Assembly: GCF_900188485.1 (NCBI RefSeq)
Contig: NZ_FZPH01000003.1
Coordinates: forward strand, 310,001-374,000
Source: Asanoa hainanensis
GTDB taxonomy: Bacteria; Actinomycetota; Actinomycetes; Mycobacteriales; Micromonosporaceae
Reading direction: 5' to 3'
Length of the DNA: 64,000 nucleotides
Positions 7,182 through 15,671 of this stretch are shown here, in pieces. Position numbers and translations under genes: made by a program. The notes beneath the pieces were generated by a model, which ran no database searches, had not been told where the DNA came from, and saw only the letters and a program-made list of their open reading frames with translations. How positions within the stretch are numbered: position 1 is the stretch's first letter; each line of letters starts with the position of its first letter.

Positions 7182-7197
7182 GCACAATGTATTGTGC
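7182..7197. promoter_or_regulatory. Palindromic operator before the first FCD/GntR gene
   Basis: GCACAATGTATTGTGC: two 7-base inverted arms around GT, 30 bases before the preferred GTG. A further half site ATTGTGC occurs at 7051-7057. The TTGT/ACAA halves resemble FadR-subfamily GntR operators, so autoregulation by the adjacent gene is the simplest reading. The rest of 7001-7226 includes a short AT-rich patch (7080-7120) that may hold the promoter. Confidence 0.6.
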
Positions 7198-7226
7198 CTG
7201 ATGCCCGACCCCCGAAGGAGCAGGTC

Positions 7227-7892
7227 GTGGAGGCGCAGCTCATCCCCGGTGAACGGCGCACCGCTCACCAGATGGTCCGCGACTCGCTGCGCAGGGCGAT
7301 CCTCGACGGCACCCTCCCCGCGGGCTCCCGTCTGGTCCAGGCCGACATCGCCGCGCGGTTGCGGGTCAGCACCACACCGGTCCGCGAGGCGCTGCGTGAC
7401 CTCGCCTCCGAAGGGCTGATCCGGCTCGACGCGCACCGGGGCGCGGTGGTGCGGGAGACGAGCCTGGCCGAGGTACGCGAGATCTACCTGATCCGCCGCC
7501 TGCTCGAGCCCGAGGCCGTCAAGGTCGCCGTCCAGGAGCTGACCCCTGACCTGCTCGCCCGGCTCGAACGACTACAGGCGGAGCTGGACGCCGCCCGCGA
7601 GCCCGGCCGCTGGGTCGCCCTCAACCGCGAGTTCCACCGCGTGCTCAACAGCGCGGCCGGGCTGCACCGGCTCGCCGAGATCCTCAACCACCTCGACGAC
7701 AACGCCGCGGTCTACGTCAACATGGCACTGCGGGCCGCCGACGCCGACCACCTCGACAGCGGCAACGAGCACCACCAGCGGCTGCTCGAAGCGTGCCGGG
7801 ACGGCGACGGTGAGCGCGCGGCGAAGCTGGTCGTCGAGCACCTCCAGCAGACGCTGAGCACCGTCGAACGCGCGGTCACGAGCCTCCGGTAG
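7227..7892 (+). CDS. FCD-domain GntR-family regulator 1
   Basis: 221-residue transcription factor from GTG 7227, chosen because GAAGGAG sits six bases upstream; GTG 7194 is in frame but lies in the palindrome. The N-terminal winged helix has the recognition segment VSTTPVREALRDLASEGLI (about residues 48-66). The C-terminal FCD domain is all-helical with an acidic/His ligand pattern (IYLIRRLLEPEAV, NREFHRVLN, GNEHHQRLLEA), usually binding a metal and a small carboxylate. It is followed by a closely related paralogue of identical length. Target and ligand unknown; possibly aromatic or organic acid catabolism. Confidence 0.88.
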   Translation: MEAQLIPGERRTAHQMVRDSLRRAILDGTLPAGSRLVQADIAARLRVSTTPVREALRDLASEGLIRLDAHRGAVVRETSLAEVREIYLIRRLLEPEAVKVAVQELTPDLLARLERLQAELDAAREPGRWVALNREFHRVLNSAAGLHRLAEILNHLDDNAAVYVNMALRAADADHLDSGNEHHQRLLEACRDGDGERAAKLVVEHLQQTLSTVERAVTSLR

Positions 7893-7903
7893 TACACAAC
7901 CGA

Positions 7904-7920
7904 CCCTGCAATGTGCAGGG
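7904..7920. promoter_or_regulatory. Palindromic operator before the second FCD/GntR gene
   Basis: CCCTGCA and TGCAGGG arms around ATG, flanked outside by ACAAC and TTGT so that the symmetry nearly continues. It lies 16 bases before the preferred start of the second regulator and 11 bases after the stop of the first. Half-site sequence differs from the palindrome before the first regulator, so the two proteins may have separate specificities. Confidence 0.55.
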
Positions 7921-7936
7921 TTGTAGGGTCTTCGGT

Positions 7937-8602
7937 GTGCTTGACGAGCTCGACCTCGCCAAACTGGCGCCCGCGCCACACCGGCGGACCGCGCACGAGC
8001 TGGTCCGCGACACCCTACGCCGCGCGATCTTCAGCGGTGTGCTGACCGGCGGCACGCACCTGGGCCAGGCGGAGATCGCCACCCAGCTCGCGGTCAGCAC
8101 GACCCCGGTCCGCGAAGCACTGCGCGACCTGGCCGCCGACGGGCTGGTCCGGATCGACCCGCACCGCGGCGCCGTCGTGCACGACCTCGACCACGACGAC
8201 CTGCGCGAGATCTACGAGATCCGCTCGGCCCTCGAACCGCTGGCGATCCGGCGCGCGGCCCGGCACATCACGGCCGACGAGCTGGCTGCGGCCGGCGACC
8301 TGCTGGACCGGATGGCCCAGGAGACGGACCCGGCCGCTTGGTTGGAGCTGAGCTGGGCGTTCCACGCTCTGCTGGGTGGGGCGTCTCGCTCACCGCGCCT
8401 CTTCTCCTTGGTCACCAGCGCACAGGGCAGCACCGCACGGTACGTCGGCGAGTCGATGAAAACCCACCCCGACCGGCTCGCCGAGGCCACCGCGGAACAC
8501 CGCGCCCTGGTCGACGCCCTGGCTGGACGCGACGGCGACACCTGCGCGAAGCTGGTCACCGCCCACCTCCAGCACACGCTGGAACTGCTGCTGAAGCCCT
8601 GA
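7937..8602 (+). CDS. FCD-domain GntR-family regulator 2
   Basis: 221 residues from GTG 7937 (MLDELDLAKLAPAPHRRTAH); GTG 7913 is possible but would lie in the operator. No strong ribosome site is visible (AGGG at 7925), so a leaderless or weakly translated message is possible. The winged helix shares STTPVREALRDLA with the preceding paralogue; the FCD domain (IYEIRSALEPLAIR, LSWAFHALLGG, TAEHRALVDAL) keeps the expected acidic/His positions. A tandem duplication followed by divergence is likely. Convergent with kdpC, five bases away. Confidence 0.87.
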   Translation: MLDELDLAKLAPAPHRRTAHELVRDTLRRAIFSGVLTGGTHLGQAEIATQLAVSTTPVREALRDLAADGLVRIDPHRGAVVHDLDHDDLREIYEIRSALEPLAIRRAARHITADELAAAGDLLDRMAQETDPAAWLELSWAFHALLGGASRSPRLFSLVTSAQGSTARYVGESMKTHPDRLAEATAEHRALVDALAGRDGDTCAKLVTAHLQHTLELLLKP

Positions 8603-13625: not shown

Positions 13626-14237
13626 ATGACCACGGTGACATCGCACGAAGAGCTGCGGGCGCTGCTCGGCCAACCGGGCAAGCGCGTGCTCGAGAAGGAC
13701 CGCAAGGAACTGCACCAGCGTGACCGCGACTGGCTCGCCGCGTCGCCGTTCGTGCTGGTGGCGACGGCCGGGGCCGACGGCACCTGCGACGTCTCACCGA
13801 AGGGCGACCCGGCCGGCTTCGCGCTGGTGCTCGACGACACGACGATCGCGATACCGGAGCGGCCGGGCAACAAGCGCGCCGACGGGTTCCACAACATCAT
13901 CGACAACCCGCACGTCGGTCTGATCTTCATGATCCCGGGCCGCGACGACACGCTGCGGATCAACGGGCGGGCGACCATCCTGTCCGACGCGCCTTGGTTC
14001 GACGACATGGTGGTCAAGGGACACCGCCCGGCGTTCGCCCTCAAGGTCGAGATCGAGCAGATCTTCTACCACTGCGCGAAGGCGTTCCTGCGCTCCGCGC
14101 TGTGGAAGCCGGAGACCTGGCAGCCCGACGTGCTGCCCCGCCGCGCCGTCTTGATCAAAGAGGTCGAGCGGCCGGCCGAGACCCTGGAGGACCTCGACCG
14201 GCACTACGGCCCGGACTACGCGAAAAACATCTACTAA
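13626..14237 (+). CDS. FMN-dependent PPOX-type flavoprotein (MSMEG_1061 family)
   Basis: 203-residue pyridoxamine 5'-phosphate oxidase-fold protein. ATG 13626 follows GGGGAGGG; the upstream in-frame extension is discarded because the ribosome site decides the start. The split-barrel core reads SPFVLVATAGADGTCDVSPK, GDPAGFALVLDDTTIAIPER and HVGLIFMIPGRDDTLRINGRA. HCAKAFLRSALWKPETW near residue 145 is characteristic of this subfamily, which probably binds FMN or F420; substrate unknown. It overlaps four bases tail-to-tail with the AlaRS-like gene. Confidence 0.87.
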   Translation: MTTVTSHEELRALLGQPGKRVLEKDRKELHQRDRDWLAASPFVLVATAGADGTCDVSPKGDPAGFALVLDDTTIAIPERPGNKRADGFHNIIDNPHVGLIFMIPGRDDTLRINGRATILSDAPWFDDMVVKGHRPAFALKVEIEQIFYHCAKAFLRSALWKPETWQPDVLPRRAVLIKEVERPAETLEDLDRHYGPDYAKNIY

Positions 14238-15466
14238 CGCGTCGCCGCTCGGCTGCGCTCGCGGTGCTCGCGCATGAGCCGCTCGAAGCCGTCGGTGTCG
14301 ACGGCGACTCCGGACTCCCGCGCGATCTCGACGGTGAGGTCGACCGGGAAGCCGTACGTGTCGTGCAGCTTGAACACCGTCTCCCCGCGCAGCGGGCCGC
14401 GCGCCAGCTCTGTGTCCAACAGGCGGTTGCCCGCCCGCAGGGTGCGCCGGAACGCCCGCTCCTCGCGCTCGACGACCTCGCGCGCGACGCCGCCGGGCAC
14501 CTCGGTCACGCTGTCCGCGACCGCGCCGAGCACCGGCTCGTCGACGCCCAGCAGCACGAGCCGGCGGACCGCGCGACGGAGCAGCCGCCGCACGACGTAC
14601 CCCCGCCCCTCGTTGCCGGGCCGCACGCCGGTCGCGATCAGCCGCACCGCGGTGCGCACGTGGTCCGCGACCAGCCGGTGCGCGCTCGGCTCGTCGTCGC
14701 GGCCGGTCGCCTCGCGCACCGCCCGCAGCGTCGGGAGCACCGCGTCGGTCTCGTGGACGTTGCCGACCCCCTGGAGGACCATCGCCAGCCGGTCGCGGCC
14801 CAGCCCGGTGTCGATGTGCCGCCCGGGCAGGTCGCCGAGGATCTCGTCGTCCGACCGGCCGCGTTCGTACTGCATGAACACCAGGTTCCACAGCTCGACG
14901 AAACGCTCGCTGTCGACCGCCGGCCCGCCGTCCCGGCCGATCGACGGCCCACGGTCGTAGAAGATCTCCGAGGTCGGCCCGCTCGGCCCGGGCACACCCA
15001 TGCTCCAGAAGTTGTCGTCGGGCCCGAGCGGCTGGATGCGCTCCGCGGGCACGCCGAGACCGCGCCAGAGGTCGACGCTCTCCTCGTCGCCGCGCAACAC
15101 GGTGAACCAGAGCCGGTCGCGCTCCAGGCCGTAGCCTTCGGTAAGCAGTCGCAGCGCGTACGCCATCGCCTCACGCTTGAAATAGTCGGCGAACGCGAAG
15201 TTGCCGAGCATCTCGAACGTGGTCGCGTGCCGGTCGGTCACGCCGATCTTGTCGATGTCGACGGTGCGCACGCACGGCTGCGCGGTGCTGAGCCGTGGGT
15301 GGGGTGGCCGGCTCGCGCCGACGAAACAGGGCTTGAACTGGACCATGCCCGCGTTGGTGAACAGCAGGTCGCGCTCGTCGGGCACGAGCGGGCCGGGCGG
15401 CAGCTCGAGATGGTCGAGGCCGCGGAAGTAGTCGAGGAACGTGGATCGGATCTGCTCGGATCGCAT
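14234..15466 (-). CDS. Alanyl-tRNA synthetase-like protein lacking editing and C-Ala domains
   Basis: 410 residues matching only the front half of AlaRS (about 880 residues). The class II core is present: motif 1 region LLFTNAGMVQFKPCFVG, motif 2 RHATTFEMLGNFAFADYFK, LWNLVFMQYERG, and motif 3 as DTGLGRDRLAMVLQG (usually GMGLER). The helical tRNA-binding region RGYVVRRLLRRAVR and DTYGFPVDLTVEIARE follow, then the protein stops at REHRERSRAATR. The editing domain with its HxxxH and CxxxH zinc site and the C-Ala domain are absent, and the usually invariant GPCGPCSE is GPSGPTSE. Downstream DNA is an intact convergent gene, so this is not a fresh truncation. Probably a paralogue with a specialised alanylation or alanyl-AMP role, not the housekeeping enzyme. 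Confidence 0.88.
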   Translation of the reverse strand: MRSEQIRSTFLDYFRGLDHLELPPGPLVPDERDLLFTNAGMVQFKPCFVGASRPPHPRLSTAQPCVRTVDIDKIGVTDRHATTFEMLGNFAFADYFKREAMAYALRLLTEGYGLERDRLWFTVLRGDEESVDLWRGLGVPAERIQPLGPDDNFWSMGVPGPSGPTSEIFYDRGPSIGRDGGPAVDSERFVELWNLVFMQYERGRSDDEILGDLPGRHIDTGLGRDRLAMVLQGVGNVHETDAVLPTLRAVREATGRDDEPSAHRLVADHVRTAVRLIATGVRPGNEGRGYVVRRLLRRAVRRLVLLGVDEPVLGAVADSVTEVPGGVAREVVEREERAFRRTLRAGNRLLDTELARGPLRGETVFKLHDTYGFPVDLTVEIARESGVAVDTDGFERLMREHRERSRAATR

Positions 15467-15476
15467 GGGCTTCGCC

Positions 15477-15534
15477 GTTTCGGTGACAGGCCGGCGCGCT
15501 CACGAGCCCAGGCATGGGCTCCTCACCGCGAAAC
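15477..15534 (-). promoter_or_regulatory. Structured leader of the AlaRS-like gene
   Basis: Just upstream of the minus-strand start at 15466. An outer stem pairs 15477-15486 with 15523-15534 (GTTTCGGTGA against TCACCGCGAAAC, two-base bulge). An inner perfect hairpin has arms 15504-15510 and 15515-15521 (GAGCCCA/TGGGCTC, loop GGCA). A regulatory leader or attenuator is possible; it does not match a T-box that I can recognise. The start codon lacks a strong ribosome site. Confidence 0.4.
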
Positions 15535-15671
15535 GTCGCGAACGCGTGGGTCGGTCGAGCGGACACGTCGAGCCGGCGCCGAGGATCAGGCGAGGACGAA
15601 GACCTCGACGATCGGCTCGACGCGGCTAGCTCGCCGCACACCTACGCGCATGTGTCGATGATGCCAGCGTT

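Follow-up and report, generated by a model that had tools for sequence, protein, structure and literature searches.

A half-length alanyl-tRNA synthetase of Asanoa hainanensis, a candidate back-up enzyme behind a predicted alanine-codon leader

The window, by which we mean the whole 64,000-nucleotide stretch of DNA that was analysed from the soil bacterium Asanoa hainanensis, carries a gene for a half-length alanyl-tRNA synthetase (AlaRS). The reading that we favour, with somewhat better than even confidence and as judged from sequence, is that of a back-up mini-AlaRS that charges tRNA-Ala without proofreading in cis under the control of a leader. Such an enzyme would activate alanine and load tRNA-Ala itself, would descend from a full-length auxiliary AlaRS that lost its proofreading part in Asanoa, and would step in for a housekeeping AlaRS that is inhibited or overwhelmed. 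The gene is as follows.

14234..15466 (stop included), minus strand: half-length auxiliary AlaRS gene, 410 aa, recognised by its open reading frame and by Pfam, equivalog and PDB matches

The protein matches PF01411 over model positions 1-431 of 552 with 443.9 bits (curated cut-off 30.3). Against TIGR00344, the equivalog model for canonical AlaRS, it covers positions 1-430 of 847 and scores 431 bits, which is below the whole-protein cut-off of 457.05. The top PDB match is the catalytic fragment of E. coli AlaRS (E 4.6e-101, residues 4-408), with the alignment stopping at E. coli residue 438. This fragment is 461 residues long and is itself reported to bind tRNA poorly (PMC10036535). The editing motifs HxxxH and CxxxH and the C-Ala domain are absent from the protein, so that it is not a canonical AlaRS, and no remnant of either part was found around the gene. 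An earlier, sequence-only reading had described a half-length AlaRS lacking the editing and C-Ala domains, and in this it was correct. A full-length alaS was found elsewhere in the genome, on a separate contig (C6; 893 aa), and the canonical AlaRS proteins of Asanoa are 46-51% identical to the half-length protein. A 245-aa open frame on contig C13, labelled AlaX-like by its sequence rather than by a family scan, might provide proofreading in trans.

The residues expected of a working enzyme are largely in place. In 34 full-length AlaRS there are 114 near-invariant columns (at least 97%), 105 of which are kept in the window protein and 98-110 in the other 15 short forms. The Asn of the WN(L/I)VFMQ motif (N194) and the Asp of the DTG motif (D219) are retained, as are both acceptor-stem residues, an Asn and an Asp, which we take to be N303 and D400 in E. 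coli AlaRS numbering. The acceptor-stem Asn is replaced in 7 of the 16 short proteins and also in the full-length L139 and L140, while the Asp is replaced in the short protein L068; the loss of the Asn from seven short proteins suggests that the short forms need not all act alike. In PMC10036535 the acceptor-stem residues are likewise given as N and D. The Tupanvirus mini-AlaRS described there charges tRNA even though it has neither, so loss of these residues alone would leave charging possible. This enzyme, which we count as a precedent by analogy, resembles the window protein in consisting of the catalytic and tRNA-recognition domains only, with editing and C-Ala lost, but it is viral, related to the enzyme of its amoeba host and without the N and D; its charging was demonstrated, whereas the window protein is known from sequence (PMC10036535). 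Its authors state that they know of no other natural aminoacyl-tRNA synthetase that works normally with this domain alone (PMC10036535).

Loss of the GPCGPCSE cysteines had also been pointed out in the sequence-only reading. The letters do read GPSGPTSE at this site, but the housekeeping alaS of the genus reads GPAGPCSE and both Cys positions are variable among the 34 aligned full-length proteins, which makes the loss unremarkable. The motif-2 GGKH loop is missing from 33 of the 34 full-length proteins too. Neither was retained as a special trait, since housekeeping actinobacterial AlaRS vary likewise.

The retained residues bear on an alternative role, in which the protein has no activation of its own and transfers alanine to a small molecule or peptide from Ala-tRNA that the housekeeping enzyme has charged, as AcmF does. 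AcmF (370 aa) is likewise an AlaRS-like protein cut down to these two domains (PMC4257720, PMC12945691), and the short proteins L175-L177 carry Ser where the WN(L/I)VFMQ motif has Asn, as might be expected of such a transferase. AcmF is, however, described as missing the active-site Asn and Asp for alanine activation (PMC12945691), whereas in the window protein, matched to AcmF by motif and not by sequence, both N194 and D219 are kept. AcmF is also reported to be only 27% identical to its nearest AlaRS, well below the identity of the window protein to the AlaRS of its own genus, and no biosynthetic gene is common to the loci. An AcmF-like role would therefore seem improbable. Among the functions proposed in the sequence-only reading, non-ribosomal use of alanine has AcmF as a precedent (PMC12945691) but fits less well than the other two, given that the Asn and Asp are kept and that the half-length Micromonosporaceae loci have no adjacent gene in common across genera. 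Production of unproofread Ala-tRNA and a resistance copy fit best, because 105 of the 114 columns and the N and D residues are kept and because the clade to which the protein belongs sits behind an Ala-codon leader.

Both the half-length gene and a canonical alaS are present in all six Asanoa genomes examined, and the half-length gene is flanked by the same genes in the six loci compared; the closest named relatives are Asanoa ishikariensis, A. siamensis and A. iriomotensis. Over 15 pairs from six species its dN/dS is 0.18-0.33, about 0.24, which is some three times that of the housekeeping alaS (0.04-0.125, 15 pairs). The gene is under purifying selection, though it is constrained less than the housekeeping alaS. 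That it is a decaying, functionless duplicate is thus very hard to credit, as it is intact and in the same place in six species with a dN/dS of about 0.24, and its leader is retained too. What might speak for decay is that it evolves faster than canonical alaS and that other auxiliary copies (L136, L180-L183) lie in broken frames or pieces, through either decay or assembly errors. A survey of gene neighbourhoods among the half-length Micromonosporaceae loci revealed no adjacent gene common across genera, though a few remote families recur.

By its sequence the window protein is a member of a second actinobacterial AlaRS clade. We have named this clade auxiliary, and in it the window protein clusters with leader-bearing paralogues rather than with housekeeping alaS. 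Searching 200 genomes of the family gave paralogues, either full-length or short, that are 56-63% identical among the matches listed; rows L038 and L042, read on the wrong strand, were set aside. When 61 catalytic domains were placed in a tree, the 44 auxiliary rows separated from 17 others with an SH-aLRT of 98.8; L168 and L185 in this tree are one gene, and 29 of the 90 collected proteins were excluded as near-duplicates or as partial or broken copies. The short forms fall into the following groups.

Micromonosporaceae group: Asanoa, L068, L070, L075, L078 and L079, with L082 outside the tree; 390-436 aa
Family f33: L175-L177; 432-436 aa
Family f31: L185; 486 aa, with a new Cys-rich tail

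We infer that f33 is Streptomycetaceae, since proteins 72% identical sit on Streptomyces plasmids. The minimum number of length changes on the tree is three, counted over 16 short and 37 full-length rows and leaving aside rows of unknown length, and grouping all the short forms in one clade is rejected (AU p 4.6e-5, from a quick tree with some long branches). Truncation to the mini-AlaRS core therefore happened in about three events. No editing or C-Ala remnant was found around any of the 16 short loci, with only ~360 nt of downstream sequence in the case of L079, while the HxxxH and CGGTH editing motifs are kept in all 20 full-length auxiliary proteins examined. In L185 (AlaRS from 8561, plus strand) a short tail rich in Cys, resembling a zinc ribbon, takes the place of the editing/C-Ala part.

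Upstream of the gene there is a conserved leader element (15565-15651) made up of a 21-codon open reading frame and a 59-nt hairpin. Its parts are listed below together with a hairpin nearer to the gene.

15586..15651, minus strand: leader peptide ORF, MRVGVRRASRVEPIVEVFVLA plus stop, with its start in frame no more than nine codons from the Ala codon
15628..15630, minus strand: Ala codon GCT (codon 8), the proposed stall site, within the 8-nt GCGAGCTA
15565..15623, minus strand: hairpin P2, with arms 15613-15623 and 15565-15575, identified by covariation
15504..15521, minus strand: perfect hairpin GAGCCC-ATGCCT-GGGCTC, seen in the sequence and by eye elsewhere

The last of these is the folded leader of the sequence-only reading. 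It is real, and a hairpin can be seen by eye at this site in the six aligned Asanoa leaders and in other long leaders, but the better conserved element is the one upstream and it is there that the covariation test gave support. P2 begins directly after the Ala and Ser codons. In alignment A2, which was fitted to the model structure and contains 32 leaders (23 from a GAGCTA-like search and nine from the model), the 8-nt GCGAGCTA is common to all. Over the 31 distinct sequences 91.8% of the P2 cells are paired, and six of the 13 pairs have changed on both sides, where shuffling gave 1.9 on average and none of 500 shuffles reached six. On a weaker measure, further pair types, 17 of the 500 shuffles did as well. 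The unfitted alignment A1 gives the same hairpin with fewer changes. The fold z-score after the Ala codon is below -2 in 14 of 22 leaders, leaving eight unremarkable by energy alone.

The open reading frame is predicted from sequence, and it too is conserved. An in-frame start within nine codons of the Ala codon is present in 67 of 68 leaders (63 ATG, four GTG), the exception, L165, having been mislocated in this count, whereas the other two frames have only one and no ATG, and six GTG each. The peptides follow the pattern M-x(0-6)-x-R-A-[S/I/T/P], where R-A was itself searched for; as the patterns for the 68 leaders demanded CGAGC followed by T or G, the constancy of CGA and of the Ala codon among them results from selection by the search. 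No clear Shine-Dalgarno sequence precedes the frame, which is perhaps leaderless.

An Ala-codon peptide set against the foot of P2, before an AlaRS gene, suggests that the gene is attenuated, with stalling when Ala-tRNA is low, and the leader probably governs expression of the mini-AlaRS. When Ala-tRNA is short, a ribosome on the 21-codon peptide would stall at the GCT codon and occupy the foot of P2, the hairpin would be blocked and the gene would be read through. With ample Ala-tRNA, P2 would form and expression would be low; termination at P2 is a possible control step, in which case the control would be transcriptional. An auxiliary TrpRS that is antibiotic-resistant and under ribosome-mediated attenuation was reportedly described by Vecchione and Sello in 2010; we count it by analogy as a precedent, this being likewise an auxiliary synthetase tied to resistance, but for Trp and not Ala. 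Leader peptides before synthetase genes, alaS included, have been proposed from RNA-seq in S. lividans, and we regard these as a further precedent (PMC8079986). There alaL is, like the window leader, a short Ala-containing peptide ahead of an AlaRS gene, but it has 22 aa with six Ala and no RRAS/RAI motif (PMC8079986). In the window P2 has no U-tract after it; attenuators lacking one are also described in S. lividans (PMC8079986).

The missing U-tract is also compatible with a different reading of the leader, in which the RNA binds tRNA or another ligand directly, as a T-box does, and the reading frame is incidental. The constancy of GCGAGCTA in A2 goes beyond what the peptide needs and would be in keeping with this. 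Rfam, however, gave no match in the window at the gathering score, to a T-box or otherwise, and nothing meaningful up to E 5 in four leader loci; the in-frame start in 67 of 68 leaders would be unexpected; and a small stem showing GCT in its loop was dropped as it had no covariation support. A leader of this type seems unlikely. Two further arrangements were considered. Hiding of the Shine-Dalgarno sequence, relieved by stalling, was unsupported, modelled exposure having risen in one of 23 leaders. For an outer helix between the start of the reading frame and the stretch after P2, the leaders were divided: in some the native pairing outscored most of the swapped combinations, in others only a few (L136 was parsed wrongly in this test). 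In the long leaders (L069, L071, L076-L085, L130-L132 and L137) TCCTCGCC can be seen by eye near the end of the peptide, with a complementary GGCGAGGA-like stretch ahead of the gene; these perhaps form a long-range pairing, and both are missing from several short leaders.

The leader lies upstream of most of the auxiliary AlaRS genes seen. It was detected in 32 of 41 loci scanned; eight of the nine misses are AlaRS loci from outside the clade, and the ninth is the half-length copy L075. Surveying by covariance model gave matches in 28 of 354 genomes of the family (two of them false), in four of 397 in a sample of the order (two already counted), in five of 394 in a sample of the class (one being the window's own genome) and in 23 of 220, 14 of 150 and two of three genomes of three other families; weak matches inside other genes (L133, L134) were dropped. 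Counting each once, there are 26 + 2 + 14 + 24 = 66 true leader places, in four families. An AlaRS gene follows at 59 of these, including all 26 in the window's own family, an APH-like kinase follows at six, and at the remaining one, L162, neither was found after the leader. The kinase places are given here.

Leader before an APH-like kinase: L158, L160, L161, L172, L173, L174 (L160 labelled by Pfam, L172-L174 by tblastn against L160, and L158 and L161 by eye from open frames)

In L130-L132, L084, L139 and L140 the element is preceded by five genes.

Five-gene row: Asp/Asn beta-hydroxylase-like, nucleotidyltransferase, LOG, phosphoribosyltransferase, HAD

A full-length auxiliary alaS follows this operon and the leader, as it does at L188 on a linear Streptomyces plasmid, while L072 has the first two operon genes only (beta-hydroxylase-like and nucleotidyltransferase). 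Relatives 72% identical to L139 occur on five Streptomyces plasmids, and the leader is present on both of the two inspected. Plasmid NBC_01766 has the same gene row, with a hypothetical protein annotated in the place of the nucleotidyltransferase; the row is absent from plasmid pSGZL. Parts of the operon also precede the kinase versions: L172, L173 and L179 have the hydroxylase and nucleotidyltransferase, L174 has LOG, phosphoribosyltransferase and HAD, and L178 has HAD, as does L158 when judged by eye.

That an AlaRS and a drug-kinase-like gene alternate behind one leader is what would be expected of two routes of resistance to one inhibitor. The protein may accordingly be a resistance copy proper, an AlaRS that a natural inhibitor does not affect and that is induced through the leader. 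This is a narrower form of the reading that we favour, so that their chances overlap, and we hold it tentatively, at clearly under even. It draws on the one leader standing before AlaRS (59 of 66) and kinase (6 of 66) after partly the same operon, on the plasmid relatives of L139, and on AcmD, the second AlaRS of ascamycin producers, which is reported to be more resistant to ascamycin (PMC12945691) and which we count as a precedent by analogy. AcmD is like the auxiliary AlaRS in being a second copy beside the housekeeping enzyme, with a reported resistance role, but unlike the window protein it is full length (871 aa) and encoded inside a biosynthetic cluster (PMC12945691, PMC4257720). Its nearest relative is reported at 44% (Bacteriovorax) (PMC12945691, PMC4257720), so from its description it is probably outside the auxiliary clade. 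Against a resistance copy, no inhibitor is known for the mini-AlaRS, no resistance residue was pinpointed, and the operon nucleotidyltransferase was not found in any of the six Asanoa genomes by a search that had no positive control.

For the back-up mini-AlaRS we count the conserved residues, the dN/dS, the clade, the editing motifs in relatives, the linkage of leader and AlaRS, the in-frame leader starts, the fact that loci scanned and lacking the leader fall, L075 apart, outside the clade, and the covariation of P2. Counted against it are a dN/dS about three times that of alaS, the match ending at residue 438, the lack of a U-tract after P2, Shine-Dalgarno exposure in one of 23 leaders, the L075 copy with no leader detected, the acceptor-stem Asn replaced in seven of the 16 short forms, and the 17 of 500 shuffles. 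The existence in bacteria of a natural AlaRS lacking editing and C-Ala would mean that these two parts are dispensable under some conditions, and repeatedly so. The shared leader could serve as a search key: the genes behind it and the upstream operon may reveal an AlaRS inhibitor or a resistance to one, and it may also lead to an RNA element unmatched in the Rfam searches. A literature search, largely confined to papers outside subscription, found nothing on the auxiliary clade or its leader. It is conceivable, though we would wager somewhat against it, that this is an undescribed actinobacterial system in which a leader peptide and hairpin sensing Ala-tRNA shortage turn on a second AlaRS or else an APH-like kinase in response to a natural inhibitor of alanyl-tRNA synthesis. 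In three lineages, that of Asanoa included, the second enzyme would have been reduced to a mini-AlaRS devoid of proofreading, the first known to work in bacteria.

Elsewhere in the window (about 7194-8602, plus strand) two similar neighbouring genes of ~230 aa lie beside kdp-like genes, and they are paired in five of the six Asanoa loci compared.
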